Assembly (NCBI GenBank): GCA_963971425.1
Contig: OZ020526.1
Span: 2,942,180-3,006,179 of the forward strand
Direction of reading: 5' to 3'
DNA from: Bryoerythrophyllum caledonicum
Taxonomy: Eukaryota; Streptophyta; Bryopsida; Pottiales; Pottiaceae
DNA: 64,000 nucleotides
Below are positions 14,022-64,000 of this stretch, piece after piece (the stretch's first letter is position 1; every line of letters begins with the position of its first letter). Below the pieces are notes generated by a model. It was not told where the DNA came from, did no database searches, and worked only from the letters and a program-made list of their open reading frames with translations. The translations under genes and the position numbers were made by a program.

Positions 14022-15600
14022 TCAATGGCCAACTCTATTACGTTCCATAGCAAAAAGAGCTGGACGAAGTGTCCCATGTTGTAGCTTGTACAAGACTGGA
14101 CCGTCTTCCCACACATTGCTAACAACTTGGGCCCTATCTAGTTCATCATCCATTGCCAAATCAAGCAAGGTGGATGCGGAGCCAGACATCAACGTGAGGT
14201 AAGCCGCTACATGCCACCCCGAGACGGACTCCCTGCCACAATGCCCATGCCACCTGACACCAGTCAAATCCTCCTCCAAAGGACTTGGATTGCAAGATAG
14301 ACCATCCGCATCCAAGTTCGTAATGCCGGCCCGGTGTACAACCTCAAAGTCATATTCCTGACGCAACAAAGCCCACCTGGCGAGCTTGCCAGTAAGCTTA
14401 TTAGATTCCATGAGCCATTTCAAAGGCTGATGGTCGGTCACCAACGTAAAACATTTCCCATACAAATAGGGCCTGAAATGGGCTATGGCCCAAACCGCGG
14501 CCAAGGCCTCCCCCTCATAGGACGAACAATTGGACTCCGCGTTGTTGTTGCTCCTAGAAGCAAACGCCACAACAAACTCTTGTCCCTCATCATCCTTCTG
14601 AGTCAACACAACCCCCAATCCCACAGCACTCCAGTCTGCGTGCAATTGAAAGGATCGTGTAGCATCTGAACGCCGCAGCACAGGCGTTGAACCGAGCTTC
14701 AGCTTCAAAGTAGCCAACGCTTGTTGTTGTTCCTGTTCCCAAGTCCATAGTTGATCCTTTCCCGTGAGAATAGCCAATGGCTTAGCAATCAAGCTAAAGT
14801 TCTGGATAAATCGACAATAATAATTTGTCAAGCCGAGAAAAGCTCAAAGCCGTGACACGTCGGATAGCGCATAAATCTTCTGCAATGCATCCACCTTGGC
14901 CTGCTACACGCCAAGCACCCTTGGAACAATCATATGTCCCAAGTATGGCAACCGGTCGTAGAAGTACTTGCACTTGCCATTGTGCAAGCGCAATCTCCAC
15001 TGCCGTAACTTCTCAAACACCGCGTGACGATGCCTCACATGCTCTTGTGGGCTGCTATTAAAAATGATAACATCATCAATGTAGCATTGGGTAAACGGTA
15101 AACCGGTCAACACCCGGTCCATCATCCTCTGAAACTTAGTAGGTGCGTTCTTGAGGCCAAATGGAAGAAACTTCCAATGATAGAGTTGATTTCTTTCATT
15201 CTAATCAACTCTCCAAAATGCAGTCTTCACCCGGTCGTCCACCATCAATGATAACTCAAGGTCACCAGACAACAAATCTAGAGTACTAAATACTCTAGCG
15301 TAGCCCACCGCATCAAAGAACTCCTTTGGCGTCGGCATGGGATACCGGTCTAACTTGGTCTTGCGATTGACCGGCCTATAATCTCCACACATCCGCTTCT
15401 CTTTCCAGTTGCCAAAGATATCCTTCTTTGATGGCTTAACCGTGGCACAAGCATACTCGCCGTTAGAGAGCTCAATCAAGCTGGCAGCCAACAACTCTTG
15501 ACAACGAGTCTAAATCCCAACTTTCTCAGAGAGAATGAGCTTGTACGGTCGTCGGAAGATCGGGTGGTCGTCTTCCAACTAGATGTATATCAGTTTGCCT
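14022..15600 (-). pseudogene. Ty3/gypsy reverse transcriptase and RNase H
   Basis: RT motifs: RMCGDYRPVNRKTKLDRYPMP, FSTLDLLSGDLELSL, and the catalytic YIDD at about 15,075-15,083. RT is followed by the connection YCRFIQNFSLIAKPL and RNase H with QLHADWSAVGLG, SYEGEALAAVWA and TDHQPLKWLM. The protein copies element RNA into cDNA. RT and RNase H lie in one frame continuous with the methyltransferase upstream. Stops at about 15,198, 14,901 and elsewhere, mostly TAG or TGA, interrupt it. Confidence 0.85.
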
Positions 15601-15947
15601 CTGTAGCCCTACAAATCATGGAGACTAAAGGCAAAACAACTACAATACGAACGTATAAACACTCGTACCCTCCATGCCTCGGCACCGATAAGATGTGGCT
15701 CAAATCCAGAGGCCAATCATCAAACTTCTTGGTCTCCTTCTCCACCGTAGAAGACTCACTGCATACCAACACGGCCAGTGATTGCTACTTGATAGTAGAG
15801 AACGCATTAATGCCCTTAGACTCTTCACTCACGGGATCCACAAAAATTCCTGTGTCATAATGATAAAATCGGGAAAAGACATTCCAGGCATCTTCTCAAC
15901 AAAAATCCTCAGTTAAGGCTGCAAAGACACGCTGAGCACAAAGCTTC

Positions 15948-17165
15948 TCAGCTGCATGCCTCTTCAAATGGAAAATACAACTCCGCTTCCTCGATCTCTG
16001 TGAGATGTGGCATTGTTGTCCCCTGACCATCAAAGTCTACCCCCAACACACGTGGATGGTCACTGAAATGGCGCTGAAAGGCAAAACACATGCCACAAAT
16101 CCAAACGAGGGCGTTGAGGTCAATTGCTTGATCCAACAAATGACGACGCTAGCCCTCAGAGAGATCCAGTGCGACGGTGGTGCCTATTATAAAGCCCATC
16201 GCCCGTTCCCTCTTATTGGCAGAAGGCTCCTTGTAAGTTTGAAAAGAAGAATCCCAAACCATGCCCGGACTACGTGTCCTAAAGACAAAGGACCCTCAAT
16301 AACACATCAACGTGGGAAATGCCCCCCGAGTGATACCAACGCGGTTTATCACCGCCAATTATAGCTCATCATCGTAGGTAACCTCTAAGGAAACATGTTG
16401 GTCGTCCAAGATGTCATCCACCTCACGGCGCACGGGCCGTTGCACTTGAGCAAGTACAGAGGTGGGCGTTGCCGATGATGCCATGTTGGTCCAAATTCAA
16501 CGTGGCCGATGGGCGTAAGAGCCCAATGCCGCGGCATCAACAAATGTGGGGGGACCAAGAAGGTGATGGATGTATGCCCCATCTTCACGCTCCTTTGTCC
16601 GTATATCCCTTCGTGGAGGTACATTCTCAAAAATGTACCCCAATGGCGTCGATTGGTGGGTAATGCACCAGTGGATAAGCCTCAATAAATCCGCAAAGAG
16701 ACCCAACCGTGGATCATCTAAGCCACGTCCACTACCCGCCCGTAAATGGCTTTGGCAAGGCCATCCGGCAATCACCAAGTCCACGTGACCTAATCGACGA
16801 AGATCATCGTCACTGATCAATGTCACATCACGTGGCAAGTTACCAAAACACCATCGAATCGTCAAAGGTGGTAACTGCTATGGATACAATGCTAGAAGAT
16901 GTTGAATGTCATGGTGAGCAGCACAGTTGGCTGCAAAGTCATTATCCACGCGGATATACCATTGTACCTTGAGCCCAGATTCTAACACAGCCGCGAGCCC
17001 CATACTGATACCACAAAATAGCTCCACGAGGATAATACCTTCACCTCGTGGTCGCCACTGAATAGTGCAAGCCAACAACGGAGTAAATGAGTCCACTAAA
17101 TGTTGTGGATCATCAAGAGGGTCGACAATCTCCCGATTGCGACATGTAAGCTCCAACTGAGTCAC
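15948..17165 (-). pseudogene. C5 cytosine DNA methyltransferase embedded in gypsy pol
   Basis: This domain lies in frame between protease and RT. Motifs in order: motif I ELFCGISMGLAAVLESG (about 17,020), which binds SAM; motif IV AGWPCQ with the catalytic Cys (about 16,757); motif VI FENVP (about 16,628); an IWTN block (about 16,490) as in DNMT3/DRM-type enzymes; motif IX-like KRERAMGF; motif X with AIDLNALVWI (about 16,120). The complete catalytic order is kept, so it was a full enzyme that methylates cytosine in DNA. At least three stops are visible: TGA at 17,166, TAG at 16,878 and TGA at 16,497. Retrotransposon-borne DNMTs have been reported in dinoflagellates and charophyte algae. Subfamily assignment needs a tree. 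Confidence 0.85.
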
Positions 17166-29546: not shown

Positions 29547-32201
29547 TTGATTTATGTAGTTGAAGTAGATGGGGAGGTAATAAATGTTCCTTTTGGTGAA
29601 ATTGAGACTATAAACGCACACACACAACAAATCAAAGAAGAAAGTGGAGAAAATCATGATTATGAAGATTTGAATTTAGGGTTCTCTAGTGACGATATTG
29701 GAGAATCGAGCGATGATGAATTAGAAGTTGACTTACTTCTTCTTAAGGACAATGTCGGAGAAATTGTCGCACGCCATCTCCACTCTAAGCACAAAGACGT
29801 GCACTTGCGTGAGGTCATGACATCTCCGTCACAGCTGCAATCCAGATACACCTCCATGCACACAAACCCTATCTTCGCACAAGACACTGGATGCTCAGCA
29901 CCAGAGCAAAGTGTACGTCAATCCACACGATCTCCATCCTCCATACGTCCACAATTGTCGCAAAGCCGCTCCAAGAGCTCACAGAGTCGCCAGATTCGAC
30001 TACAGAGCGACAACGATCCACAAAATTTGGTAAACATGGCGCAAGCGAGTTTGAGTGGATGCAAGGAAAGCGCGCAAGTCGGCGCGACTGGTGAGGTTGA
30101 GCCCGAAGATGCTCTGTGCAAGGCGGGAGGCACCAGAGCCGAAGGGCGGGAGCTTGTTGCGATGCAGCAGATGGAAGATGTAGGACGGGAGGGCAACAGG
30201 CTGGAACGCGCCAGGCGGGAGCTCATCGCTGGCAACGACATTTCTGCGATCGATGGCAGTGAAGGCCCTGACGAGCAGCTCGGCATGGACGACTAGAGAA
30301 GAGAGCACGACATCGACGATCGCAAAGGTGTCAGCGGCCCACGAAGCATGCACGCTCGGCGAGGCGGACGGACAACTGGGCAACGCCAAGCAAATGCCTC
30401 CAACGTGGGAGGATCGCATACGATCGACCGTATGCTTGGACAACAAGCTTCATTACAAAACACTCCAGGGAGTTCAGGGGAGAATGGGGAGAGCAACTCC
30501 AGTGAGGATGGGTCGCCTCCTGTTCAAGGTATGAGGGGAGATGGATTTACCCGTGGGGTCCGGGGTCGTGGAAGGGGGAGGGGAAGAGCTCCAGTAAATT
30601 GGGATGTTGGAAGAACATTCAAAGAATGCTACGATGATGTGTATTGGGGCCAAAGTCGATCAACATATACCCATGATGATGTTGAATTCCTTAGACCTTT
30701 GAGTGGTCCCTCTTATATATTTAGGGAGGTTACCCCGGTCAAGGATTTATTTCACAAGTTTTTCAATAGGAGAACATTGAGAAAGATTTGTAGAGAGTCA
30801 AATAGATATGCGGGATCAATTGACCCACACACTGGTTCTACTAGGGGTCCAAATGATTGGTGGAGGCTAACCATACCGGAATTGGAAGCATGGTTTGGCA
30901 TTGCGATGCTCATGGGCCTAAAAATTCTACCTCACAAAAGGGCCTAGTGGGAGAGAGATGAGTCCTTTATTTATTGTCCTAGGATAGCTAGTATGATGGG
31001 TAGAAAGCGATTTGAGGCTATAGGCCATTGTCTTCACATCCAAGATGACTCTAGGGCACCTACGGACCGCATGGACTCCGCTTATGATAAATTGGCTAAG
31101 CTTAGGTGGCTCTTGGAGGAAGTTAGAGCATGTTGTTTAGCAAATTGGAATCTAGGACAATACATAACCGTGGATGAGCTTATGGTGCGGTACAAGGGGG
31201 TTTATGGGCATGGTATGAAGCAATACATGCCCAATAAACCCGTCAAATTCGGCTTCAAGGTGTGGGCGGCGGCAGATTCTGAATCAAAATACTTATACAT
31301 CTTCCAAGTATACACCGGGGCGGACGTGCAGTGGAATTTACAAGCGGCGAGACCGGGTGAGGCCAAAACCGGGTACGATGTTGTTATGGCTTTGATGGAG
31401 GGATTGCATGATATTGGTCATGTGGTAGTAACGGACAACTTTTTCACCTCTCCTAAGTTGTTAGTTGATCTTTATAAATTGGGCACTTTTGGCACCGGTA
31501 CCGTCCGTACAAACCGCATAGGCTTGCCTAGCTTTTTTACGGACAAAAAACGGTGGGCCTGAGAACCTCAAGGTACCATGGGGTGGAGAATGCATTTCAC
31601 GGGAGGTTTGTGTTGCTTAGTTTGGGTTGACAAGAAGCCCGTGCTTCTTTTGTCAACCCATGCGGTGCCGCTTCCGCCCAACCCAGATGTCCCCCTCACG
31701 GTCCCAAGATTTTCACATGGGAGGTTGGTAGATGTGCCCACTTCTCCAATTCACTTGGAGTATACCCGGCAAGTGCGCGGGGTCTACGTAAGCGACCAAT
31801 TACGGGGTGTCTACACCACCTTGACAAAGTCGCAGAAGTGGTGGCATAGACTCTTTCTCTTTTTGATTGACTTGTCTATCACCAACTCATGGGTTTTACA
31901 CAAGCGGGAGAGCGAAGTTCTTGGTGAGAAGCCGAAGACACATTTGGGGTTTGTGAAAATCCTTGCCTTCTCACTCATGGTGGATTGGAAGTCGGAGCGC
32001 GGTGGAGTGGTATCCTTCACTAACTCTTACCCCAGGACACACTCTCTTTACAAAATTGCAAAGGCCCGACATATTTGCAATTATTGTAATGCTAAAAAAT
32101 CACTTACAAGTTTTGTGTGTAAGGATTGTGGGAATGTTTGGGCTGTTTGGCTACACCACGGAGATTGCCATCGTAACTCACACTTTTCACAATGGAAATA
32201 G
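29547..32201 (+). pseudogene. PiggyBac transposase (DDE_Tnp_1_7 type) with three in-frame stops
   Basis: One frame runs from about 29,547 to the stop at 32,199-32,201, broken by TAG 30,294, TAG 30,945 and TGA 31,560. The N-terminal part is acidic and Ser-rich (GFSSDDIGESSDDELE). The catalytic domain starts near 30,600. The three Asp of piggyBac enzymes are visible: TVDELMVRYKG (about 31,170), VVTDNFFTSP (about 31,430) and VSDQLRGVY (about 31,790), the last followed by KWWHRLF. A C-terminal zinc-binding tail CNYCNAKKS...CKDCGNVW is the usual Cys-rich domain that recognises the transposon ends. It would have performed TTAA-specific cut-and-paste transposition. Stops render it inactive unless rescued in trans. 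Confidence 0.88.
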
Positions 32202-46447: not shown

Positions 46448-46592
46448 CTACACCTATGATTGAAGACAAGCCGCCAAACTTGTAGACCTCAAAGACTACA
46501 AGGTAACTACCATTGACCGTACAATATACCGAATACATACATCAAAGTCTAGTATAAGCTACGAATACTATACTAATATATTATATGTAGTA

Positions 46593-47772
46593 GTGTACAA
46601 ACATACACCCGTATATGGGGCATATAAATACTGTATTAGTCCTTATACTCAATACAAATACATTACTCTATACACAGGAGAATACATACACACATACTCA
46701 AATACATATACTAATACAATTACCAAAATACATACACCCATATATGGGACGTATAAATATTGTATTAGACTTTATACTCAATACAAATACACTATTCTAT
46801 ACAAAGGAGAATACATATACACATACTCAAATACATATACCAATACAAATGCCAAAGTACATACAAATACAAAACCTCAAAAAATACATATAAATACATA
46901 TACATACACAAATAAAAATAATATCTACAATACACACACACACATAAACACAACACCCACCACATACAAAAAAAGATGCAAAAATACAAGTAAATATCTA
47001 CACATTAAGACAAACACAAACCAAAGTACAAAAACAAACACCAAACTAATTAACAAAAACAACATACAAAACAATAAACCAAAACAAAACAACAAACCTA
47101 AGAAAACCGATCCAAGGGAAAATCACTCAAAAGAAAGAAAACATAATATGAATATCCTTCAATACAAGGATAAAATAAACAAAACAAAAAAATATACTAG
47201 AAAAACAAAAAAACATACAACTATTAAACAAAATAACAAACCACCACATTATAAACTACTACTAATACTTGGAGGAGACATAGAAACCAACCCAGGACCT
47301 ATGCCAAACGTACTAAAAAGACATCCAATACAACACAAAAAAATGCCAAAATATATTTTATACCAAACACAATAAAATTACAACCGGAATATATACATAT
47401 TGCTCGATCATTTGCACCTATACTAAAATCCACACATACACTACACCTATCATACGCCAACACACATCCACACATTATCCAATATATACAACAACAAAAC
47501 AAACACCCCTCACCACATATCCTATACGCCATAGTAACTACAATCCACCCACACATAGACGAATGCAACCTCCTATTAAATCAACAAAACCCAAACATAA
47601 CTCAATGGACTAATAAACTACTAAACTCCCTTGCTAACCTACAAAACCCTCCTGAAAGACACATTAACACCCCACATCCTTATATATCATTCATTGAAAA
47701 TAACCAAAATATTATAAACCATAAAACATCAATACATAAAGAACTATATGATTTCATTCACAATCATCATAT
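46593..47772 (+). pseudogene. N-terminal part of a LINE ORF2 with a 2A ribosome-skipping motif
   Basis: An open frame of 260 codons (46,593-47,375), Lys/Asn/Thr/Tyr-rich and A-rich. At codons 222-236 (47,256-47,300) it reads LLLILGGDIETNPGP, which is the full 2A consensus D-(V/I)-E-x-N-P-G-P with its hydrophobic lead-in. 2A peptides make the ribosome skip a bond between Gly and Pro, releasing the upstream product. A +1-type shift at about 47,375 moves the reading to another frame (EYIHIARSFAPIL) ending at 47,770-47,772. The first 150 codons hold tandem-like YTQYKY phrases and may be partly non-coding. Confidence 0.6.
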
Positions 47773-47779
47773 ATGATAT

Positions 47780-48210
47780 ACCACCATCACAAGAAACTAT
47801 AAAACAAAAATTTCCATACCTTCCCAACAATCTAATTATTGAAACACTAAAATGCCTCGACCAAATACCAGAATATACCCACCCACCCCCCCCCTTACCT
47901 ACGCCCACAAAACCAAAACAATAATCCAAATCAAGAAAATGCATATATAATCACATGGAATGCCTCCTCTCTAAACACCGCCCTCCCTAGCTTACAAACT
48001 TTGGTCACACATACAAACACACCACAAGCCATTATAGTTATACAAGAAACAAAATTATCCGCCACGAAATCCACAAAATATATACAAAAATTATTTCAAG
48101 ACTATAAACTCATTTTTAACAATACACATGCACTTACAAGATGTATCCAACAACGGAGACCATACACACCGGGGCGCGGTGGTCTCCTTACACTAATAAC
48201 ACGCAATTAA
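47780..48210 (+). pseudogene. Truncated AP-endonuclease domain of the LINE
   Basis: A Pro-rich linker leads into IITWNASSLNTALPSLQTL, then AIIVIQETKLSA, then YTPGRGGLLTLITRN. The W-N-x-x-S-L start, the catalytic Glu in QETK and the GRGG strand match the N-terminal third of APE-type non-LTR endonucleases, which nick the target DNA. The domain stops at 48,208-48,210; the rest of APE and the whole RT are absent. So this is the 5' part of a LINE, unusual because LINEs normally lose their 5' end. Confidence 0.7.
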
Positions 48211-48762
48211 GTAATTATGCACTTAGCCAAGTGCACTGGTTGCTGGTAGAAAGCCGCAAGTTGTTTGCTCATAACTTTTAAAAAAATCAAAATTTGGCAA
48301 AAGTTTAGTATGTTTTTTGTCACAAAATTTTGGTGTTTGTCGTATCAAACATTGGCATCTTAATGTTCATATCAGTAATACATTTTTTACATTCGCTACT
48401 TTTTTTTAGAAAATATATGATTTCTAATCTACTTTGCAAATCCTGCTACAAAATTATAATCATGTGCCCAAAGAGATTATAAATGTGTTTTGAGTTATTA
48501 TAGGATTTTAGAACACTGCACTACAAATACAATGTGTAAGAGATACAAAAATATATATGCAATTTCCCAAGACAGTATAAAGTACCTCACTGTATTTTAT
48601 AATGCAAAAACATACATAATCAAGCAATTCCACACTAATGTTGTATTTAACTATTTCTGGACTTTGCAAAGTCCAGAAATAAGGAAGAAGGATTTTAGTC
48701 TCGTAAAATAGTCGCACCAAAGAATATGAAAGGGATACCCAGTTAATTTATTTTAATCATTC
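48211..48762. other. Spacer between the LINE fragment and the palindrome-rich segment
   Basis: No gene. Contains a perfect 30-bp palindrome at 48,652-48,681. Confidence 0.5.
48652..48681. repeat. Perfect 30-bp palindrome
   Basis: TATTTCTGGACTTTG is followed directly by its exact reverse complement with no loop. It lies about 80 bp before the first CCGG...CCGG palindrome variant and may mark an element boundary. Confidence 0.8.
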
Positions 48763-50513
48763 AGCCGGATATCTCCGGATGGTTTCAGTGATACAATACG
48801 AATCGAATATAGTGATAAAACAAGCGTGAAATTTCGTTCGTCGTGATCGACAAAATGATAACAACTTTCAAGCTAACACATTTATAAAACTACCATGTAA
48901 TATGGTGTACTGTACATTTCTGTGGTAATATCGTGTAGAAGATGAGTACAGTGCATTTCAGAGCTTGAAGCATTGACATGTAAGGAATGCCGTTCAGACA
49001 TTCGGAGATATCCGGTCGAAAGCAAAGTACTAAAAAAATAATTGCTCGGCTGTTCAAAAACGACAATGCTACTCTGGAATGAAGTCTCTTTACAAAAGCG
49101 TTTGATACAAGACCAAATGTAGGAAAAAATAGTGACTGGTCTCAGCAAAATTCGTGGATCTAACAACAAATTCTATCCTTGCACTACCTCTCTGAAGAGC
49201 TCTAAAGATCCTTCCAATGAGCCGGTGCGTACATGTCCGAATCGACATCAGACCCTGTGTCACACCCAGTTTGAAATGGGCTGCAGCCGCCATCCGAAGA
49301 AGATTCCTCCTCGTCTTCATAACAAGGATCGTCCTCCTCCTCTTCTTCAATCGAAGCAGCTCCATTAAGGGTCTCTTCCACATCGGAGTCGATCTGCTTC
49401 TCGTCCTCCGCATCACAGTCGATGCCGTAGTCCTCCTCTTGAACAAACTTGCTCTCAGCGTCATCCTCCAATTCGTCCAGAACACGCCGATCGGACCAGA
49501 TCGCCCTTCTGTACTCGCCTTATAAGAAAAGCAGTCTTCCCTTCTCCAAACCCTGAGCCTCGCTCACCATCCTTCCTGAAACTCTCCTGTCTACCGAATC
49601 AGAGACTTCCCTCTCCCTCTTTCTACTTCCGAAAGCCATCTCCTCTCTCTCCACCGTGGCTATGGCCTAACAAGACTTATGGTTGAAAGACAAAACATAT
49701 GGATTGCTGCAGTCCTGAACCCTCTCTTATACAATCCTCCCCACCCACCCACTAATTACACTTCTCGAGCGTAGGTACATTGATTTAAGTCGCCATAACA
49801 CCGAGACTGATGGACTTAATGGCAGATGCCAAATTCATGAACGAACAACATGGTAGGCCACGCGTCAAACGTCCTGTCGTAATGAGATGTGAGAAGTACA
49901 ATCTCTGCCGCCAACCATCAGCATCATTTCAATCAAAAGAAGGAACTCGGATGACTGATATTAACTGTGTAATTGACCGCCCACTTTCATTTTAGCAGTG
50001 GCATGTCATAAATCAAAGAAGGAACCAGCCAAGAGAATGCCAAAAAGGTCTGTGTTATTTTGAAACAAGTTCCATTGTTAGAGAAATTGCAGTATCGTAG
50101 TCACAGAAGATCTCCGGATATGATTCAATACTATTCAGAACACCTAGGGAAGCTCAAAATTGGGAAATGTGGACCCCATTGTTAAGAATAGTAGATGTGA
50201 ATCTCGTATCCGGAGATCTCCGGATCGATCTCATCCACTTGAACAAGGCAATACATGAACATTCGTCCGACCATGAAATTTGTCTTCCATACCCGGAGAT
50301 CTCCGGTAAGCTTTCTATGAGATATGCGGGTCTGATAATATTCCGGTGGCATAAACCAGTCAATAACAATTGTGTCACTACTCAATGTATCCTAATAACA
50401 GTGAATGGAAGAGCACAAACCCGGTTCTCTTCACGAAAAGTGGCGAGAGCTAAAAGGAGGGATGTCGAACTCGGGACCAGAAAATAATCGTCTTCACAGC
50501 CGGAGATCTCCGG
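48763..50513. repeat. Palindrome cluster 1 (left flank of the minus-strand genes)
   Basis: Exact CCGGAGATCTCCGG at 50,210-50,223, 50,293-50,306 and 50,500-50,513. Variants at 48,763 (CCGGATATCTCCGG), 49,003 (TCGGAGATATCCGG) and 50,107 (partial). All lie outside coding sequence, downstream of the DUF7869-type gene and around the acidic ORF. Confidence 0.85.
49202..49639 (-). pseudogene. Small acidic protein of the palindrome segment, one in-frame TAA
   Basis: Starts ATG 49,639 (MAFGSRKREREVSDS), reads through basic then mixed sequence to a TAA at 49,520-49,522, and continues in the same frame through a highly acidic C-terminal half (EEEEEDD, DEEESSSD) ending HWKDL at 49,202. About 145 codons. 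No known domain. Acidic low-complexity tails occur in chromatin-associated proteins, but no function is claimed. It lies in the same orientation as the DUF7869-type gene. Confidence 0.4.
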
Positions 50514-50702
50514 TGCTCCTCCGTGAGGACGAAGAGACTCGACGAGGTTTTTTCAGAAACAGAATTTCATACAACAGAATTTAAGGTATTGGGACTCATC
50601 ACCGTATCAGGGATCAACGGCATTCGCTTTCTCTAAGTTCATAAGCGCTGCTTCCTTCATTTTACATGGAATGGATCACGTCAGTTGGTTAACTTTGCTT
50701 GA

Positions 50703-53700
50703 TCAAGTCGCAAACAAAACAGAACTCACATGACACCATACAGGCTTCTCTTGGTCCGGAACCCAAGTGGCTTCTCAACAGTCCTGGTACTTTCGCTTCA
50801 GATTCTTCTACTTGTTATCAGGCTCCCAATACTTAACGAGGAATTTTCCGTGGTTGACATTACCCTCATCCCTGACGACGTTCAAAACTGCTCTACCCTA
50901 CCAGACAGGATAGATGTCTGGATCACTAGGTCTAACTAAAATCCAGGACCCGAGACGAGGATTAAATGTGGACTTTGGGGCTTCATTGGCGGGTCGACAG
51001 TAAGGCTCAAGAACCTCATCTTCGGGGGTGACATCCAATGGTTGTGGAAGCGATCCTAGCGGATTTTCACCTCCCTCATGAGGGCCTCTCCAATCATGGG
51101 TAGGCCACAATCCCTCTTCGAGCTCGGAGGGCGTCTGTGGAAGTGGCTTGTCAAGCTCGTCGATGACGTCCCTCCAGTACTGCAGGTATGGGCGGATGGA
51201 GTCTGCGTACCCTGCGCACTTTGACATTCCGGACGCCCAATAGTCCACGTACTTCCGAAGCCCCGTCTTCATGAAGTTTTTGTTCTCCGTCGCTTTTCTG
51301 GCCTTGTCTCTGGCAACATCTTGGTTTCCGACCGGGTTCTGCTCCTCACTACCCCATATGGGCTTGAAAGGGACGCGCTTCGGAGAGCCTGTTGGAAGCA
51401 TGGGACGTCCGCTGTCATCTACCTTCCAGAGTTTTATCGGCTCTCTGTTCATCGGCAACCACTCTACGTCAACGGCAGATTTCTTGAACTTCATGACCGG
51501 AACACCATCATTGTCAACGTAGAACTTGAAAAGATGCATATCACTTAGTCCCACCAGACGTGCCGCCCCACTGCATAAGAAGCCATCGACGTAAGATTTA
51601 AAGTCGGCCACCTCTTGGATAACTTCCGGCATGATGGCTAGTTTCTGTGACTTCATGAATGCCTTCATCAGATCCGATAGAATATATGTACTGCTTTTCT
51701 TGAGTTCTTTCGATAAATGACTGAAGTAAGCATCAATATCTTCATGCGTATGTCCCACCACCAGGAAGCCAACCTGTATCTCCTTGAAAACACATCGAGC
51801 TATTAGCAGTGATAAGAATGCCATCAAGTACTGGTTCTTGTTGTCCTTCGCTGAGTTGTCGAGCTGTAGAAACAATTTCGGTGGCAACGGTTTCGGTCCC
51901 TTAAAAGCACTGGGCTCCACGGGCTTTAAAGCGTCGACACACCTGCTCTTTCCCCTCATGAGCGCCGCGAACATCGAGTTTGGAGGAGGGTGCTCGAAGA
52001 GCGCGCGCATCTCATGTAATGGTGCTCCCTCAAGCCGCCTAAATAGTTTTGCTAGAGAGGATATGGTGGCGTTCGAATCTCCCGGCCATAAAGCAGGAGC
52101 ATAGTGAGCATACGCTCCGTCGACATGACCGTGAGCCACCATTCCGGTGACATTCATGGGAAGCTGTCCGAGACCAGATGTCGCCTTAGTAGTCCTCCAC
52201 ATGCGTGGAAGGGCTGTCTTCGCAGTGTCCATCTTGTCGTGAATGACACAAAGAAAGGTCAGCGGCTTCGCCTTCGACTCCTCTCTCCATGTCGCATAAA
52301 GCTTCCGGCATGATTGTTGGTGATTCAAGTGAGCCTGCCTGTTGCTATAGAAGAGCTCGTATGCGGGCGTTCCCTTTGGAGTTGTCAGTAAGAACTGATT
52401 GAACTCATCGCAAGTACTGCATTTTGCGAAGGTGCTTCCAGATGGCTTAATAGCAACATTCCCGAAGAATTCCTTCCTTACCCTACTAACTGTGGACTGA
52501 CTTACAGGAGGGAGACCGTAGGAGTCGTTTGTCTGCAAAATGAAAAATTAACCTAGTGAGAGGAAAAATTTTGAAGTACAATCCAACAGATGGTGCGAAG
52601 TACTAAGTTAATCAATTGAAGGTCAATGCAGGTCAACGATGACCGAGCCGGAGATCTCCGGTTAAGATACTTGGACATCGATCGACGGAGCAACGAGAGT
52701 ACAAATCCATTGCAATATGCGGAGACTAATAACGTACATCGTTGACGCTCGCTCGAATTTGCTTCCAGTTGTTTCCCGCAGGAAGATACTTGAGAGCGTC
52801 AATCCGACCATTCTCGACACTTTGCATTTGGTGAGGCATTTGATCCGCGTTGTCATTAATAATCGACATCATTGAGCCCATCGCCTGTATAGTGGCAAGT
52901 CGTGGGCGCTTGATGCCCTTGTTACCGTGAGTTGCATTAATGATTCCTCTACTGAAATGTGCGATGTACGTGTGAAACGTGGACTTCTGAATTCCATGGA
53001 TTGTGTACCATGCAACGGAGCAGACCTCCGTTCCCAAGAGCGTGACGTACTTTCTCTTCCAGTCCCCATCAATGGAGTGGAACTGCCCGCCTACCGAGAT
53101 CGCATACTCCTTTCTATCTTCAAAGGATTTGTCATAGAATTTCTATCTAACAGAAAGAGTCTGGGATTGTTGAAAATATTGGCAGCATCGTTTGGGACAG
53201 CACCTTTCCGAGCTGACTTTGCGAATTTCGTCGCCGGTAGTCCTCTTGGTGTACAAGGATTCCTTCTTGTTAAGGTCTTGATGTCGGGTAATAAAGCGGT
53301 ATGGCTTCTTCGCACGACCCCCCGAATGAGCACCAAGATCAGGTTGTAAAGGCAGGGATGCAAAATGATCAATTGTGCTTTTCAAAGATCGACCGGAAGG
53401 AAAACAACATTCAAGAATGGGCCACGACTCATCACTCATAATTCTCTCCGTGTCTTCCACAAAAACATCAAGGACAGTTACACCAATATTATCTTCTCCC
53501 AAACATCCACTTCGGAAATGATCCGCTGGGAAAGCAGCCATGATTCTCCCAGAGCAGTGCACCAACCCATCTCCGTCCAATCGTTGTACTTCAAGTCCAA
53601 CCCATCGCTCTCGTGGTACGAATGGGGACTCGTCGGACCGGAGATCTCCAGTTGGAATCATGACATCCGTCCTTCTCCATAAAACGGTCCGCCGGAGTGT

Positions 53701-54117
53701 GTGAACAAGTGAATCGTATCTGCGTTGCAAAGGAATGAGTGGTAATTCTTCCGCCGCGGGGCATATGGTCGTTGGTCTAAGTAATACAAACTCACTGGAT
53801 CCGACTGGTATGTCAACTCCAAGCCATTGACCCATGGGGTGAACCTCAACAATGGACGCTTCTCCAATTTCGCCTGAACCTGGCCTCATAAGGTTCACGG
53901 ACATTCCTGACCACAGGACCTCCGATCTTCCAGTAGACTCCTGGGATGAATCATCTTCTTCGGTGAAATTCACATGTCCAGAATCGGAGCACTGAGCTGC
54001 GACCATGGCAAGGTCTTCCGAGTCACTCTCCCACCAATCTAAGTCAGACATAGTCCCGTGCTGCATCGGTGGATTCTCGGTTGGTGGCTGATGTCCTGAA
54101 TGAGAAATTGTGTGCAT
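50703..54117 (-). pseudogene. DUF7869-type (putative DDE-like) protein with several in-frame stops
   Basis: Exon 1 runs from 54,117 to about 52,738 (donor GAT|GTACGT), exon 2 from about 52,532 (acceptor TTTGCAG) to 50,703. The N-terminus is acidic (ESDSEDLAM). Mid-protein is the family's CC-x3-CC segment (ERCCPKRCCQYF). Exon 2 holds CSTCDEF, LQLDNSAKDNKNQYLMAF and FLVVGHTHEDIDAYF, the D-N...G-H-T-H-E-D core of DUF7869 proteins, and a tail that rebuilds as GKFLVKYWEPDNK...KRKYQDC. The conserved Asp/His residues suggest metal-dependent catalysis, possibly transposition; this is unproven. In-frame stops: TAG 53,143, TAG 50,898, TAG 50,808, TGA 50,775, with the frame otherwise kept. The intron carries one exact palindrome. 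Confidence 0.7.
52648..53651. repeat. Palindrome copies inside the DUF7869-type gene
   Basis: An exact copy at 52,648-52,661 lies in the intron. A copy with one mismatch (CCGGAGATCTCCAG, 53,638-53,651) lies in exon 1, where it is read as part of TGDLRSDE. Confidence 0.85.
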
Positions 54118-54163
54118 GTAGAGTCAATTTGGATGACCAACCTCAATATCGTCGGCAGGGATA

Positions 54164-54466
54164 GCCGGAGATCACCAGCAGAGTAGAGAATGATCAACAA
54201 CGACGACTTCTTGTTTGATTAAGCGAGAGAAAGGTGGAGCTAAAAGTTCCAGTCGTATTTAATTGGAGATCTCCGGATAATCCAAACTAGGCTGGCGAGG
54301 AGACTTTCAATGAACATTTTACACAAAATTGAAGTAGCCGGAGATCTCCGGAAATCCTGCTTACGAAGATTCTGACAGCCACTGGAATCAAGGGGTGAAA
54401 CCGTGGTTACCGGGCGAGATTGGCAGAATCTAGAATAGCACGGCATGAACAGCCGGAGATCTCCGG
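54164..54466. repeat. Palindrome cluster 2 (5' side of the DUF7869-type gene)
   Basis: Exact copies at 54,338-54,351 and 54,453-54,466. Variants at 54,164 (CCGGAGATCACCAG) and 54,263 (TTGGAGATCTCCGG). They sit within 50-350 bp upstream of the presumed start codon, where operator-like sites would be expected. Confidence 0.85.
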
Positions 54467-55525
54467 TTGAATTTTTTGGTCTTGATCGAATCAATAGCCG
54501 TACGGAATATTCGCGAGTATGGCGGTGTGATACAGTTGCAAAACCCGGTTAACAGTTTGGATTCACACGCCAAGCAATTACGTCATCTATATACTCGAGT
54601 CGAATTAAATTACTGCTTCAGGGCTATGACTGTATCTTCGGAGATGAATTAGTTATAAAATCTCTATACGAGAGCTCCCGATCGACTCAAAGGACAAAAT
54701 GCAACACAATCTTCACCAATCCTCACAGATAGACAGCGAATACGGAATTATACGAGGGAACATACTTAACATTCCTGGAATAATGTCGATTCGTTTCCCT
54801 ACAGTTATCTAGCACGATGTCGCGCACGCGAACACTGTCACTGACTTGTTCAGCTCCCATAGTATCTCAAACATCCAGAGCAAAAAAGGATGAGAGCTGA
54901 GTTGAAGGATACTCTTATCCACCTTTCCATCACCTCGTGGAGGGAAAATTCAGGCGCTCAAATTTGAAACGAATCTTGGGCATGCATGTTCCTTCAAACT
55001 AACTGCTGTACACCATCATGATTGTGCGCATTCTTCGACGTGCCCACGACCGAGGCCACATTCCACTCATGATAATGAAAGGCTCGTACTCTTGGGATGA
55101 CCGTATTGTAAGGATACCATCTAGTTCCCAGAGTGCTGCAAATTTGAAAACGGATGATGAAGTCTGCCTCATGATGTATCTTTGAATATACTAGGGCCGT
55201 ATCACGTCTTAGACTAAATCACAGTAAAATGTAATCATACAAGACTTCTCGTACTCACCTTTGTTAATTAAATTATACCCTACCCAAGGAAAGGAGACGG
55301 CCCTCTGCTGCCTACTAGTATTGTTCATCAGGCAATACAAGACTCAAGTAGAACATCGGCGTTCGTTACCAATTAAAATAATCTCCGATATTTCCTAGTT
55401 CGACAGAAGTTATATGGAGGCTTGAGAAAAAACGTGCACAAATAACTAAGCAGATGCTTTTAGAAGTACAGCAACCCCGTCCTATGAATTCGGGTACAGC
55501 TTCCGTGTTCAGGCTGGATTGTGCA

Positions 55526-55745
55526 TTAGGGTTTTAGGGTTTAGGGTTTAGGGTTTTAGGGTTAAGGGTTAAGGGTTTAGGGTTTAATGTGTATGGTTTA
55601 GGTTTAGGTTTAGGCTTAGGGTTTAGGGTTCATGGTTCACGGTGTAGGGTTTAGGGTTCACGGTTCCTAGTTCACGGTTTTAGGGTTTAGGGTTAAGGAT
55701 TCAGGGTTCACGGTTCACCGTGGAGGGGTCTGAGTTCATGAAGGT
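55526..55745. repeat. Interstitial telomere-type repeats (TTTAGGG)
   Basis: Degenerate array of TTTAGGG, TTTTAGGG and TTAAGGG, grading into GGTTCACGGTT variants. TTTAGGG is the plant telomere unit. Internal position and degeneration show it is interstitial, not a chromosome end. Confidence 0.9.
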
Positions 55746-56339
55746 TTAGGGCTTATATCACCTATAAATGTATAAATTAAAAATATTTTATAACTATGAA
55801 CTATAACCTTAAGTTTATCGATAACCATAACTTTTAAAAAAAACCTAGATACTATAGAGTGTAAGGAAATTTAGCGAGAATTGAACAATAACTATTTATT
55901 TTGATACATTATAATTTAGTTAGAGAGAGATTAAAGAAGAGAAGGAGGGTAATGGATTTAATTTTAGAGTAGACTAGCTGTTGGCGCTTGCTTTGCAATG
56001 CATTAGCCCAACCATTTTTATGTATTTATAATATTAAAAAGTATTAAAAAGTAAAAGGTGGAATGGTTCACTATATTGTTGACAACGCAGTTGATTGTAG
56101 TGTTTTTGTAGTTCACTGCATGGTTGACTACGCGATAGTTCACTCCGTCGTTTACTGCGCAAATTATGATTTTAGTAGTATGACTAGGAGTTGGCGCTTG
56201 GTTTGCAACGCATTAAATCAACCATTTTCATGTAGTTTTTATATCACAAAGTATTTAAGAAAAAAGGTAACAACAATCTACATAAAATATGAATATATCT
56301 TTGAAACCTATGCATTAATTTGAATAATGTAATAGAATG

Positions 56340-57600
56340 GGATAGAAAAAAAAATACTATTACAATAGTTCAATATTATTAACTAAGGATGGAGATTGAG
56401 AAGGAGGGGAGAGTAAAACTAAAATAAATAAATAAACAAGTATGAGGGAGAGTTAGGGAGGGAGAGTAAGAGAGGGAGAGACTTGAGGGATTTATTTTTA
56501 GAGTATTTTACATTTTTAGAATATGTAATAAGAGGAATCTAAAAATAAAATCAAATGTAAAAAAGAGATGGAGAGGGAGAGTAAGGGATAGGGAGAGTAA
56601 GGGATACTAGGAAGAGTAAGCGAGGAAGAGTGCGGGATTGTTTTAAAGAGTAGTTAATTATTTTTAGAATGTGAATTTATTGAAATAAGGAGAAATCCAA
56701 AAATTTTTAAAAATTCAAAAGTAAAATAGAGATGGAGATGGAGAAGGAGGGGAGAGTAGAACTAAAATAAGTAAAAAACAAGTAGGAGGGAGAGTAAAGA
56801 AGGGACATAAAGGAGAGTAAGAGAGAGAGAGACTTGAGGGATTTATTTTTAGAGTAGTTTATATTTTTAGAATATGTAATAAGGGGAATCTAAAAAGAAA
56901 ATCAAATGTAAAAAAGAGATGGGGAGGGAGAGTAAGGGAGAGGAAGAGTAAGGGAGAGGAAGAGTAAAATAGGGAGAGTAAGGGATTCTTTTAGAGTAGT
57001 AAGTTAATTATAGAATGTGTAAGTATTGAAATCACGAGGAGTCTAAAAAATATTAGAATCAAGATTAAAAAAGAGATGGAGATGGAGAAGGAGGGGAGAG
57101 TAAAACAAAAATAAGAAAAACAAGTGAGGGAAAGAATAGGATAGTAAAAAAATACTATTACAATAGTTCAATATTATTAACTAAGGATGGAGATTGAGAA
57201 GGAGGGGAGAGTAAAACTAAAATAAATAAATAAACAAGTAGGAGGGAGAGTAAGGGAGGGAGAGTAAGAGAGGAAGAGACTTGAGGGATTTACTTTTAGA
57301 GTAGTTTATATTTTTAGAATATGTAATAAGGAGAATCTAAAAATAAAATCAAATGTAAAAAAGAGATGGGGAGGGAGAGCAAGGGAGAGGAAGAGTAAGA
57401 GAGGGAGAGTAAGGGATTTTTTTAGAGTAGTAAGTTAATTTAAGAATGTGTAATTATTGAAATCACGGGGAGTCTAAAAAATATTAGAATCAAGATTAAA
57501 AAAGAGATGGAGATGGAGAAGGAGGGGAGAGTAGAAAAAAAATAAGAAAAACAAGTGAGGGAAAGAAGGGAGGGAGAGTAACGGAAAGGGAGATTAAGCT
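56340..57600. repeat. Purine-rich satellite with about 800-bp higher-order period
   Basis: The block AATACTATTACAATAGTTCA occurs at 56,353 and 57,151 (about 798 bp apart). Within it GGGAGAGTAAGGG and 'CTTGAGGGATTTA(T/C)TTTTAGAGTA' recur at about 56,488, 56,832 and 57,281. The plus strand is heavily A/G-biased. Confidence 0.8.
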
Positions 57601-59267
57601 TTTCCACTAATGTCGTTTTAAATTCAAGTATAATAATTACTCTAATACCCGGTGAACCCGAATATCTATTATAGTCATATCTAATACCCATGAAACCGGG
57701 TATCAATACGTCTTCTCACGCATGCTCACGACATTGACAATGTCATGATTGTGAAATGGACACGTTGTACATGTACATCATTTCAGCTGATTTTTAACTT
57801 CACCCACTGTCATCATGAGCCGTCACACCTTTGAGCCGTCCAGCTTGTCCTCTTTGGGTTTTGGGAACTCCAAGAATGAACCATTTCTTGTTTTTTTTGG
57901 CTTTTGTCTTCGTAATGTCGAAGGTAGTGAGCGGAAGTGGCGGGAGGGGTTTTCTTTCTTGGTTTGCGGAGTCGGCGTCGACGCATTAGGTTAGTTTCGT
58001 ATGCGCTGTGAGAGGCCGTTGGTGTGCGAGGTGAGTGTTGATTTATGTGAGGGACATTGAGCGTGCCGTGGAGAGGTTGTTAACTGGATATGGACTGAAG
58101 GTCAGAGAGTAGGACTGAAAGAGAGCGAATGCATTAGGAAGAAATTTGAAGAGCGCCTAGGTTCAGTAGCCAAGAGTGAACGACGCTGCGGTTTAGGGTG
58201 GCGTCAACACGAACGACCACGACGTACGGGTGCGCCGATTCGGCAAGTGAAGAGGTATGTAAAGTCTCAAAAATGGCTTTCAGTGAAATTTCAGTTGAAT
58301 TTGCAGAGGACTTCATAGAATCGTCACTGGAGCAGGTGTAGGGTTCGGTAAGCTTCATTAGGGTTCGAGAGAGTCGAATAGTACTGATGTTGTTAATCGT
58401 TTGAGCGTAATAGAAGGGTTTAGGGTTTAGGGTTCTAGTGTTCTGTGCATTCAGTTTCGAAGGGCCGTAATTGAGCAATTTATGCAGTGTTGAAATATAT
58501 TCCGCCGAATTCTTGTCAGTCAGAACTGGACCTTACATTCTAGGGCATTTGAGAGATTGTATAGTGTGTCGTTCTGAGTTGTTGAATGCTTATGTACTGT
58601 AGAGCTGTGTATATACTTTAATCCAGAGCAGTTACTGGAGGAGATTGCGAAATGGCGACTACAGTAGGGACGTTGAGTGAGACTGCGTGGGATGGAAACC
58701 GGTAAGTCTACATAATTGAACTGTTTATGCTCAGTCCGGGTGACCAAGTGGGGTTCCTTTTTTTGAGTGAGTTCTGAATTAGTTCTATTATTACGGAGTG
58801 GATGAACACTTGAATGGTTTTGAAAAACCTCAAAAATTGCGTACTAGAATTCAGATGTCTGTTTGGCTATAGTCGATTGGTTTTTTGTTGTCCCGTGAAC
58901 ATATTTGTATATCTATTCATGAATATGCAAATGATTTTGGAATTCCAAGAATGTTTGAATGTGTTTTTCCTCACTGAGTCTGTCGAGTCTGGTTCGATTC
59001 AATGTATATAGTTTAATCCATGTAGAGTCGTCAAATTTGGCGTTCCATCGAAACATTAGCAGATTATTCTTCTTGTGTGTAAGGTCGAGTTATAACAGAA
59101 TTGTGTGAGCTCTTTTTATACATATATTTATGTTCTCAATTATGTAACTTGTTATTTAAGTATGTCAAACTTCAAGAGTTATACGTCAAACCTCTCTGTA
59201 AATGAATGTAAATATTCGAGTGATGATATGATCCGATTAGTGCTATGAAGAGCCGTACGTGCTTTAG

Positions 59268-59542
59268 CCGGAGATCTCCGGCTGTAAATACGGAGTTTCA
59301 GTAATCAGCCGGAGATCTCTGGATGATGTAGCGATCAGATGAATATGTAAACCCTATACAAGCGTTTGTTATTCTCGAAAGCAGCCGGAGATCTCCGGAC
59401 GTATCGAAACAGTGGAGGTTCGCGTTGAGGGGTCATTAACCGGAGATCTCCGGTTTAGGTCAGAAATAGATCCGTCAAAGCAGCCAGGATTCATTCCTTG
59501 TTGGATGCACTCGACTTCCCCAAATCAGTCGAAGATCTCCGG
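59268..59542. repeat. Palindrome cluster 3 (intron 1 of the ParB-like gene)
   Basis: Five copies in 275 bp: exact at 59,268-59,281, 59,385-59,398 and 59,440-59,453; variants at 59,309 (CCGGAGATCTCTGG) and 59,529 (partial, GAAGATCTCCGGG). Spacings are 41, 76, 55 and 89 bp. Confidence 0.88.
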
Positions 59543-61108
59543 GTACTGTCCCCTGCTGGCACTGTGATACAGATTTGGAAGCACGATTCATGGTTTCAAC
59601 ATCTAGGAACTTGTCAGGTGATTTAGTTTCGGATTCCCGTTATTGACCAGACAATTGCATCGATTCTAAACTGCCTGCAAGTTCTTTCAAAATGATCTTG
59701 CAGGGATTTGTGGACAACCACACTTCCGACTGAATGTCGACCCGGGAAACTTGCGGCATTTGTAGAGTATTGGCTCCCTGAGTTTGTCTATAGAGGGATA
59801 CACAATGTCGGCTACGTATACAATTGCCGAAAGAGCATAACCCAGTGGGGCATCAAGCTCATTAAAACCCCTGATGGTGCCTGGGAATTCGTCCCTCAGC
59901 TTCGGATTGGCAAACGGGGTCACCCCGACATTGGTCTCCAGGTTCTCGAGTTGTAGGGTCTTGATGACGAGGTCAGTCTCGTTATCGTCTTGGAGAACGT
60001 GGACTCCTCCACCGAGCCATTCATATACGGCTTGATCCTAGAATCATCTAAGATTTCGGATGAGATGGTGGAGACCTGCCAGAAGGAGAACTTTTTATTT
60101 GCCCCTCCAACAGGTGATACGTGGTATCCGGAGTACATGAATGAGCAGTGGAAGTGGATGGCTAAAGTACAAGAGAAGTCCCGAATGCCCGTTCCTGACG
60201 CAACTCCCAATCTGTCTCTGACACCAGCATCGACCTTGGCAAGAAAATGCAAGACCACCTTGAAGACTTCGACCCCAGGTTCCTCATCGCGGGCGGAGAA
60301 GGGGAAGAAAGCGAAGGCCGATGAGCCTGGCCTTGCAATCAAAAGGTGCCTGAACTTCACACAGGCTGACCTCACCAAAATGAAGCGGACTGAAGTGGAA
60401 GCAATTGGCAAGGTACTCGACGACGCATTCAAAAACGTTTACATACACAATAATAAGCCTTTGACAGTAGAAGACCCTGACACGAAGAAGGATGTCGTGA
60501 AGCTCGTTCATTTCGATAAGCTGCATCGAGCCCCCCCTGGAGGATTAGTATACAGGGGCATCCAGAAAGAACGGCTTGAAGGAATTATCAACACAGTTCG
60601 CGCGTCTTTGAAGGCCACGGCACCTGAGATTCACATTCGAGTCTTGCCACTGAAGAAGAAACCTGAAGGAAGTAAAGTAGAGTTTTTCGCGACCAAGCTG
60701 ACGAAGGAGGATTGCCTGAGGGACTCGACACACTTTTACATTATCGGAGGTCAGCATACTGTGGCGGCGCACAAGGTTTTGTCACACAAATTGCCAGCAA
60801 CGTGGACGCTCGAAGAGATCTCCCACTTCTCTATCATCCCGGTTTGGACAAAACCGGACCCCAAAGACATGACCCTGCTACAGCTCTCGCGCGCTCTTAA
60901 CCAAGATCTGACGGGTCTGCGGAAGGAGCAGAGTTTCACTGAGCAGCTGCAGACGTGTAGAGTGAAGTGGTTTGAGTTCGGTAAACCAGCCCCCCAACTG
61001 TATGGTCGTCCTCAATCTGACGCATTCTCGGTAAATATACATTCTTAACATGAATAGATTTTTTATTCGGTGGATGTGCTCTATCCTCACAGCAACCAAA
61101 CCAATCAT

Positions 61109-61122
61109 CCGGAGATCTCCGG
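61109..61122. repeat. Palindrome in intron 2 of the ParB-like gene
   Basis: Exact CCGGAGATCTCCGG, 33 bp before the acceptor of a 124-bp intron. Confidence 0.88.
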
Positions 61123-62860
61123 CTGCTTACACCCTGTTATTGTTTTCATTGCAGACGTTCCAACGGCAAGTGGTGCCAACGGTTTTCACATACCTCGGTA
61201 AAACATACCCCAAAGATGCGAAGGTCCCACTTCTATTCGAGATGGATGATGCGGTGGTCCAGAAGTGGATCCGAATCGACAGGTTGTTCGTCGCTGGAGT
61301 CTTACCAGACTCCAACGGGAAGACGGGGGACCCAGCTAAGCTGAAGCGGAAACCTCTGGTACAGAACGACTTCAAGCCTCTTTACAAAATGCGCGCTGAA
61401 GACCTAGACTACCTCACGGACTTAGTGCTTGAGAAGAAGGTCTGTGTGAAGTCCTCCAAAGCGGCAAACCAAGGTACTATGAAAGGGCAGGCGGAGACTC
61501 TCGAAAACGCGGCGAACAGAGAGAAGAGAGTCCGTGCAATGAAGAATGAACTGATGCTTAAATACAAGTCGCACCCCCTTCCCTCGAAGTCTGCTGACTT
61601 CGTCCCATACACGAAGGAGCAGTGGAACGCATTTGCCGAAGAGAGGAATATTTGAAGGGTCCAGCTCGAGTCCTGGGTCGACGCCCCTAATCACTCTGCC
61701 AAGGGTAAAGCTTGGCTTGAGGGTCGACTGAAGGCGATAAACAAGGATACCGACCCCACTCCAGACTTCCTCGTGTCCATTTGGAGTCAACACATCATTG
61801 AAGATGCTGCCGAGGCCACACCCATGAATGATACGTCCCTGTTCGACTCCAAGTACACCTGCAGGGTAATGCCTGACAGAGGGGCCGAGATCGCCGAAGT
61901 ACTTATCATGCCGGACATTCAACAGTGGCATAACGTCACTGACCCTCACTTTTACTTCTTTTTCCTTTACCGCGTTAAAGACGACATATGCCGTACACAG
62001 GTGCTGGATGTGTTTGGCTTCAGAACCATTTTTGACCATCTCGAAGTGGACATGAAGGACGGGCGGACGAGGGTCAGATCACCGTCGGTTCTTATCACTG
62101 ACGTCACAGGATTCGTTGAATTAAAGAGGTACATCAGTCTTCGGCAGAGAGAGTCCAGAGGCAAGGTAAAATTGTGGGCAACGCATGTCGTCTACTACTT
62201 CCCCCACCCTGGTGATGGGTTTCCGGTTCTAGTAATTGGGGTCGAGGAGACAATATACTGCGTATTTCTGTATGAATACGATTCAAGCGAGACGCCTGCT
62301 CAGTCATTCAAGAGGCTCTTCAAAGGCCACCCCGAAAAAATGCCGGCCTTCTTTTCAGCCGCTCAACATAAAGAAACCATCCAGCGCTGGAAGCAAACCG
62401 GTGTCCCACAGCTGAGGATCTCGGTCCTCGATTCGCTGTTCATGGGATACATCAGAGAGGATATGGTGGTCGTCAATGTTCATGGAGGACCACATATTAC
62501 ATACCTCGGCTTGGTAAGCAAGACATCCTTCCCAAGCAATCCAATGTCTAAGATTTCCAGTCCGCATACAGTTATATGAATTGGATATCGCCGTCCTAAG
62601 TTTTTTTTGGTTTGCAGACTCACGACGCACGGGTCCTCGAGATTGTGAACAGCGAAGATGCCAAAGTAAATGCCGAATCATGCGCAGAACAAATATTCAA
62701 ATTCCACTTGAATATCTTAGCTGACTTTACCGACGCCGATCCCGAGGAGGCAGTGGAGACTGACATCACTGGGTCGATCCAAGGCGTTGGGGTTCAAACA
62801 CGGGCTATGTCGAGGATGAATTACACCGGCGAGGTATAACGCCTACGGATACTACCTGAC

Positions 62861-63396
62861 CCGGAGATCTCCGGCTATTCATTCGATTCGGATGCCCTCC
62901 ATTCTTCAGGACTCGTCTTTATCATTGCCATGTTCATTTTTAGTTCCCCCGGTAGACTCGGACAACTTTGAACCGGAGATCTCCGAGTGTATGATACTGT
63001 TTTATTTTGTATTGTGTCTTAATGTTTTCCACACTGACTTCGTCAATGTGACGCAGACGATTGATGCCACGATGCTTGATGTTGATGTGCGGAATGAACC
63101 AAGTGATTAGCGGTTTCCAATTTTAGACTCGAGTCCTTGGCTACAGCCGCTCGGATCATCGGTGCGGGCACCCCAATCGACCCATTGTAGGTAAACGATG
63201 ATGAACCACATCTTCCTTTCAGACGTGCCTCGCCTAGTTCGACAAGCGACTCTACTCTGGACGGCATCCCTCTCAAATGGAAACCAGTTCGCATTCCGAC
63301 AGGCAACGTTCTCCTCCGCCAGATCTGGACGATGGCACGGCAATGTCCGATCGCCTGGAGTTCGACCACATCCACAGAGCACCCGGAGATCTCCCG
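62861..63396. repeat. Palindrome cluster 4 (intron 4 and downstream ORF)
   Basis: Exact at 62,861-62,874 and a one-mismatch copy at 62,973 (CCGGAGATCTCCGA), both in intron 4. A one-mismatch copy at 63,383 (CCGGAGATCTCCCG) falls in the next ORF, read as PGDLPL. Confidence 0.85.
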
Positions 63397-63881
63397 CTGG
63401 ACAACCCTTTGACGACGCGTCCTAAAGTAGAAGTTGTGTCCAAGAGTGCCGAGGACCTGACTTTGCGTGCATTGATCACATGATGGATGAGGCATCGGCG
63501 CAACAAACATTGCATGAATTACAGGTTATAAGCCCTCCGCGCAGCCCTCCGCGCAGCCGCGGGCAGTTGGCTCAAAAAGAGAAGAAGAAGGCAATCGCGA
63601 AGAATCCTATGCCGAAAGTTCCTCCTCCTCCGCCTACAGTTCGGACAAGGGCCCAAAAAGATAAGGTGAACAGTCACTTGTCCATCAAACCTTCTTGATT
63701 GTTCTCAAGACAGTGCACTCTCTACAGACCGTGTTCTTACCACTCCATTACTGGTATTCAGGTGTCGGCAGGATCAACACAGTCGAAGGATGTCGGTGGC
63801 AGAAACCTCGCACAGACTGCTGAAGTCGCTGGTTTAGCTCAGACTTCTAGGGATACTACACCTACTGTCCCAAGTGCCTAA
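63277..63881 (+). CDS. Unrecognised plus-strand ORF at the right edge
   Basis: A frame from ATG 63,277 (METSSHSDRQRSPPPDLDD) runs 68 codons to a TGA at 63,481. A second open frame from 63,480 (MMDEASAQQTLHELQ) reads a basic, Pro-rich stretch (KEKKKAIAKNPMPKVPPPPP) and, after a stop at 63,696, continues to TAA 63,879 (GIQVSAGSTQSKDV). The pieces are probably exons of one gene (a possible donor CAG|GTTATA lies at 63,524), but I could not fix the splicing. It lies in the same orientation as, and just downstream of, the ParB-like gene. No known domain. Confidence 0.3.
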
Positions 63882-64000
63882 TATGGACATTCATACTTAC
63901 GTGCCATCATCTATATAGTGCTCATTATTTCATCGAGCATTTCTGGATTGTGAGTGCGGAACACTTTTATATGTATCTTTGCAATTTCTGTAAGCTGTAC

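Follow-up and report, generated by a model that had tools for sequence, protein, structure and literature searches.

What does it mean when a single palindrome recurs through one segment of a plant chromosome and nowhere nearby? This question is raised by 64,000 nucleotides of the bryophyte Bryoerythrophyllum caledonicum (assembly GCA_963971425.1, contig OZ020526.1, positions 2,942,180 to 3,006,179), hereafter the window. A preliminary description had counted 11 exact and about 10 near copies of a 14-bp palindrome, CCGGAGATCTCCGG, in one segment and none in the other DNA of the window. It proposed either a large mobile element or a chromosomal domain and suggested that a protein encoded there binds the palindrome. 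Scanning the whole window, we recovered the same counts: 11 exact copies between 50210 and 62874, and 21 places with at most two mismatches between 48765 and 63396, that is, 10 near copies. The rest of the window contains no copy, exact or with at most two mismatches. The segment accounts for most of a cut-and-paste-type DNA transposon of 17.4 kb with two divergent genes; the chromosomal domain can be set aside.

In 100 dinucleotide shuffles, we obtained no exact copy and a mean of 0.06 copies with at most two mismatches. Over the whole element, 25 palindrome positions are separated by 18 to 4815 bp, the shortest spacing depending on a position present in only one of the copies examined (copy C), and do not form a tandem array, as first described. 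The shuffles and the dispersed spacing rule out chance or a satellite as the origin of the set.

A 17.4-kb DNA transposon with two divergent genes

The element belongs to a family that we named F1. It starts at 48638, occupies the window to its last position (64000) and ends at window-equivalent position 66043, for a total of 17,406 bp. We examined five copies, the window copy (W) and copies A to D. The element is common to copies A to C and partly to D, and the sequence immediately outside its ends differs. Aligned pieces of at least 150 bp are 73-99% identical among copies, the long ones mostly 88-98%. Both ends are present in three of the five copies (W, A, and B), copy C having no right end and copy D being cut where the GGQHT gene, described below, has its intron 1. 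In these three copies, the 26-bp left terminal inverted repeat (TIR; 48638..48663, + strand) matches the right end read on the opposite strand. The sequence at the left is ATGCTGTATTTAACTATTTCTGGACT (in W, ATGTTG...); the one at the right, in reversed orientation, is ATGCCnnATTCAACTATTTCTGGACT and has one further substitution in W. According to the flanks of the same three copies, the target-site duplications (TSDs) are ACTA in W (48634..48637, repeated directly after 66043), CCTA in A, and TTGT in B. TIRs of about 26 bp and a TSD of fixed 4-bp length characterize cut-and-paste DNA transposons, and the fold model of the protein encoded by the first gene has the RNase H fold and acidic residues of their transposases.

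This gene (50606..54860, - strand) encodes a DUF7869 protein (PF25273, E 2.2e-46), which is likely a DDE/D transposase, its activity being predicted from the fold model. Exon 2 (54095-52738) and exon 3 (52532 to about 50606) are bounded by splice signals; a small first exon near 54860-54771 is uncertain. Among the best 120 of 202 relatives, those named belong to Ceratodon, a moss, and Riccia, a liverwort. Together with the introns of the genes and the TTTAGGG-type repeats described below, these relatives mark the window as eukaryotic and moss-like. In the genome, 40 of the 79 exon 3 matches scored from 4305 candidates, the window copy included, have no stop codon within the matched part, and intact-looking relatives therefore exist. 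The DUF7869 family is huge in this genome: a first look gave 3608 candidates, all 150 of those scored were matches, and many of them have open frames of about 1075 amino acids.

The second gene (58652..63110, + strand) has exons at 58652-58701, 59704-61030, 61155-62513, 62618-62833, and 63057-63110. These are joined by consensus splice sites in a single continuous frame interrupted by two in-frame stops, with an uncertain 3' end. It encodes a protein of about 1000 amino acids followed by a NIF-like phosphatase domain. The preliminary description called it ParB-like. Its short IIGGQHTxxA...LNQ motif resembles motifs of the ParB superfamily, and we refer to the protein as GGQHT; no ParB match was obtained with Pfam, PHROG, or PDB profiles. 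A DUF6551 match over the motif remained below threshold (E 0.029). Searching with exon 2 identified six relatives (31-50% identity); the full-length search retained none of 7941 candidates, in databases that perhaps hold exon-wise predictions. The fold prediction (mean confidence, pLDDT, 38) was left unused.

Degenerate telomere-like TTTAGGG repeats (55526..55718, + strand) lie between the divergent genes, accompanied by GA-rich repeats over 55526-57600. The window copy is broken, with several stops in the DUF7869 gene besides the two in the GGQHT gene. Some of its palindromes are mutated, for instance from CCGG to CCAG or TCGG, changes that look like methylcytosine decay.

The exact palindrome occurs 2718 times in the 437-Mb genome (894 contigs) versus three times for a reversed control pattern. 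Contig C1 holds all of the first 50 exact sites listed, in four clusters of 16, 16, 7, and 11 sites, and each cluster is a copy of the window's element. The clusters examined thus coincide with element copies, in line with the preliminary proposal of a mobile element. A 16-mer extension of the motif gave 131 forward and 109 reverse matches; 88 of the 100 listed are on C1. Sixty-six of these are no more than 20 kb away from one of the element ends or GGQHT exons listed, versus 4.4% expected by coverage, the comparison drawing on 100 of 418 end matches and on 99 of 1212 and 92 of 1423 scored GGQHT exon candidates. Two of the other 22 adjoin a DUF7869 match. With at most three mismatches, a 33-bp left-end pattern has 206 + 212 matches in the genome and none for its control; we therefore estimate that the genome contains a few hundred copies or remnants of the element. 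Viral contigs carry the 14-mer in at least 120 stretches, and the 80 listed show one palindromic place each (both strands counted) and no clusters; DUF7869 alignment gave no relative among 57 pattern matches in these contigs.

Conservation of the palindrome and its replacement in a sister family

The preliminary description placed the palindromes in flanks and introns. This holds for 24 of the 25 positions recorded over the five copies, which are outside an exon model covering 40% of the element (P 5e-5); sequences near 63.2-63.9 and 65.1-65.5 kb that may also be exonic are left out of this model, so that exons could account for a larger share. The remaining position (53638..53651) is in DUF7869 exon 2, at codons TGDLR; it has one mismatch in the window copy and is exact in copies A, B, C, and D and in the related family F2. 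Clusters are found in the first intron of each gene and on the 3' side of the DUF7869 gene. Four palindromes follow the DUF7869 gene (50104..50513), one lies in its intron 2 (52648..52661), and four in its intron 1 (54165..54466; starts 54165, 54263, 54338, and 54453). A palindrome-free interval of 4.8 kb, between 54453 and 59268, holds both gene start regions. Intron 1 of the GGQHT gene contains five palindromes (59268..59542; starts 59268, 59309, 59385, 59440, and 59529), to which copy C alone adds one at 59547. One more is located in intron 2 (61109..61122), two in intron 4 (62861..62986), and one, CCGGAGATCTCCCG, 3' of the exons (63383..63396). Beyond the window, the element carries one further exact palindrome and two variants. 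These two variants (65637 and 65809, window-equivalent) and two near the left end (48765..49015; starts 48765 and 49002) have a GATATC centre, kept in all examined copies having the site (five of five at 48765 and 49002, four of four at 65637 and 65809).

In the alignment of W, A, B, and C, 300 of 321 palindrome columns are invariant, compared with 984/1284 in the 30-bp flanks, 1477/2060 in introns, 6736/7828 in other non-exon DNA, and 5481/6274 in exons. Non-exon windows drawn at random (10,000 sets, mean 84%) never reached the 93% of the palindromes; sites were picked for at least one copy within two mismatches, which introduces some bias toward conservation. CpG dinucleotides are retained at 36 of 45 places in palindromes (flanks 31/83, introns 40/132, other DNA 182/379, exons 234/448). 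The comparison of F1 with F2 (C15:5821000-5838999), whose data begin after its first 1.5 kb, gives the same result: 285 of 294 palindrome letters match, against 1463/2132 in introns (about 31% differ), 900/1243 in flanks, and 5566/6268 in exons. Eighteen of the 19 exact palindromes of F2 are at window positions compared; the other, in GGQHT intron 1, is perhaps the counterpart of the additional site in copy C. Judged by these alignments, the palindromes are better conserved than exons despite diverged introns.

A third family, F3, is represented by one locus on contig C836, with its DUF7869 part at the contig edge. Its GGQHT protein, 34-36% identical to that of the window, has the NIF-like domain, and its partial DUF7869 exon 2 is 34% identical over 173 residues (E 4e-27). 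Its TIR, read at one end, differs from that of F1 by three mismatches in 26. Over the 19 kb compared around the GGQHT gene, blastn revealed no similarity between F1 and F3 besides the TTTAGGG repeats, which sit between the divergent genes in F2 and F3 too. Layout and genes match, with a different palindrome that shares its core with the first: F1 and F2 carry CCGGAGATCTCCGG, whereas F3 has 27 GRGATCYC-core sites, of which 22 conform in full to TCGnGRGATCYCnCGA. Immediately upstream of DUF7869 exon 2, the place of the F1 intron 1 cluster, there are seven, and eight more lie upstream of GGQHT exon 2, as in F1. Two directly follow GGQHT exon 2, the place of the F1 intron 2 site, and nine lie further 3', four of these in a coding repeat. 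A site in the DUF7869 exon falls at codons SGDPPM, homologous to the TGDLR site of the window. The coding repeat, in an F3 open reading frame (15537-16850 of L169, reversed), is a tandem repeat encoding SGDPT-like peptides with its four palindromes spaced by 108 bp. A Gypsy element inserted in F3 has no GRGATCYC-core site, and positions 1-48000 of the window have two F3-type cores. The exact F3 16-mer TCGTGAGATCTCACGA occurs 41 times in the genome (control 0), on 15 contigs: C200, C245, C259, C281, C317, C379, C439, C522, C553, C577, C651, C679, C722, C813, and C836. None is on C1-C15. All these contigs bear numbers from C200 upward, and F3 may therefore derive from an unplaced compartment or from contamination. 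No fourth family was seen among the 92 GGQHT matches scored of 1423 candidates. One DUF7869-only element (26% identity) has, in the 9 kb examined, neither a GGQHT gene nor a palindrome array except simple TA repeats.

Candidate readers of the palindrome

Because a related element has a different palindrome in the same places, the palindrome is probably a docking site for a protein of the element itself, as first proposed. The mirrored identity of the F3 half-sites is 183, versus 181 when the pairs are shuffled, and 34% of the shuffles reach the observed value. The half-sites thus appear to vary independently, which argues for a protein dimer on double-stranded DNA. We propose that the DUF7869 protein would act as a DDE/D transposase at the TIRs of about 26 bp and that the 14-bp palindrome, with 20-25 sites per element, would be the family-specific docking site of an element-encoded dimeric DNA-binding protein. 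The putative reader is most likely the large GGQHT protein with its NIF-type phosphatase domain downstream. It would bind in the 5' introns of the two genes and in their flanks and, by analogy with VANC, most likely keep the element transcribed, either by counteracting silencing or by autoactivation.

The alternative that best withstands the data is that the palindromes are internal or subterminal sites at which the transposase or a helper pairs and cuts the ends, as for En/Spm (TnpA) or Ac. The variant palindromes 0.13-0.4 kb from both ends, fixed in all examined copies having them, would suit this role. Most sites are, however, deep inside, in introns of both genes and up to several kb from the ends. 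Moreover, the TIR is near-constant from F1 to F3 while the palindrome differs, so that the part of the transposase that binds the ends is probably not the reader. We consider this alternative unlikely.

Two others have clearly poorer prospects. In a partition system of the parS/ParB type, the GGQHT protein would load at the palindromes, spread, and cluster or anchor the element DNA in the nucleus. The scattered sites, the ParB-superfamily-like motif, and the sub-threshold DUF6551 match point this way, but profiles gave no ParB match, plasmids no match to P0122, and an integrated element has no obvious need for partition. This role is improbable, and we judge it about equally so that a host factor, either a repressor or a silencing protein, recognizes the sites or that they act as hairpins in transcripts. 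Most sites are indeed intronic or flanking, and the perfect 14-mer could fold into a stem of 5 bp closed by a 4-base loop. On the other hand, host-repressor sites should decay rather than exceed the conservation of exons, the F3 half-sites show no compensation, and 48001-64000 has no Rfam match at gathering scores. A neutral-passenger reading, in which the palindrome would owe its abundance solely to that of an element whose copies share ancestry within one family, is contradicted by conservation above that of exons, by CpG retention, and by the different palindrome at matching F3 places, and is very improbable.

The combined proposal of a DUF7869 transposase, family-specific palindromic docking, a GGQHT-type reader, and anti-silencing or autoactivation is, on balance, somewhat probable in our view; its transposon and dimeric DNA site parts deserve greater confidence than the whole.

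Comparison with known systems

The closest analogue is the VANDAL/VANC system of Arabidopsis. VANDALs encode a transposase of the Mutator-like element (MULE) type. The scanned frames of the moss element give DUF7869 (Pfam E 2.2e-46) and no MULE domain, and we rejected its membership in this group. Both are multi-gene plant DNA transposons with a short motif enriched in their noncoding DNA and differing between related families. The VANDAL motif is 8-9 bp long and in tandem repeats, whereas here it is a 14-16-bp palindrome, mostly dispersed; TIRs are degenerate in VANDALs and well preserved here, with a 4-bp TSD. According to two reports, VANC21 and VANC6 target distinct short motifs in noncoding DNA of the elements that encode them and bring about a loss of DNA methylation (PMC5735166; PMC10398659). 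The accessory protein of the moss element is GGQHT/NIF-like.

En/Spm (CACTA) elements also have repeated short sites bound by an element protein, but these are subterminal and non-palindromic, whereas here they run through introns. CACTA elements have CACTA ends and a 3-bp TSD; with ATGC ends and a 4-bp TSD, the moss element does not belong to them. The likeness to bacterial parS/ParB lies in the scattered palindromes and the ParB-like GGQHT motif; the lack of a ParB profile match, the integrated eukaryotic setting, and the downstream phosphatase domain set it apart. Sola, Ginger, Chapaev, and piggyBac elements likewise have 4-bp TSDs; as to piggyBac, Pfam gives DUF7869 here and not a piggyBac domain. 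Literature listings on DUF7869 and on bryophyte, ParB, or Sola transposons contain nothing on this element, nor does the available part of PMC7466625 mention it.

The remainder of the window carries other sequences resembling mobile elements. LINE-like (long interspersed nuclear element) reading frames lie directly left of the transposon (46464-48207, + strand) and contain a GDIETNPGP peptide, which we take to be a 2A-like motif. Fragments of a piggyBac-type transposase are found at 30297-32198 (+ strand; DDE_Tnp_1_7, E 3.9e-40). In a retroelement-like block (12647-16877, - strand), a fragment of a C5 cytosine methyltransferase lies near a PHD finger and an RNase H.

These data describe a large transposon group, abundant in this genome, and give DUF7869, a domain of unknown function, a likely role as a transposase. 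With the same layout, near-identical ends, and different palindromes even in homologous codons, the two families provide a natural test of the co-evolution of motif and reader. We tentatively suggest, at slightly less than even confidence, that each family of giant bryophyte transposons may have a private palindromic address, its own GGQHT/NIF-phosphatase reader, and an anti-silencing defence, address and reader changing in concert and the ends remaining constant. Such self-recognition would have arisen independently of VANDAL/VANC, as a second system of its kind. Should the reader prove to be an anti-silencer, plants would have evolved systems of this sort more than once.
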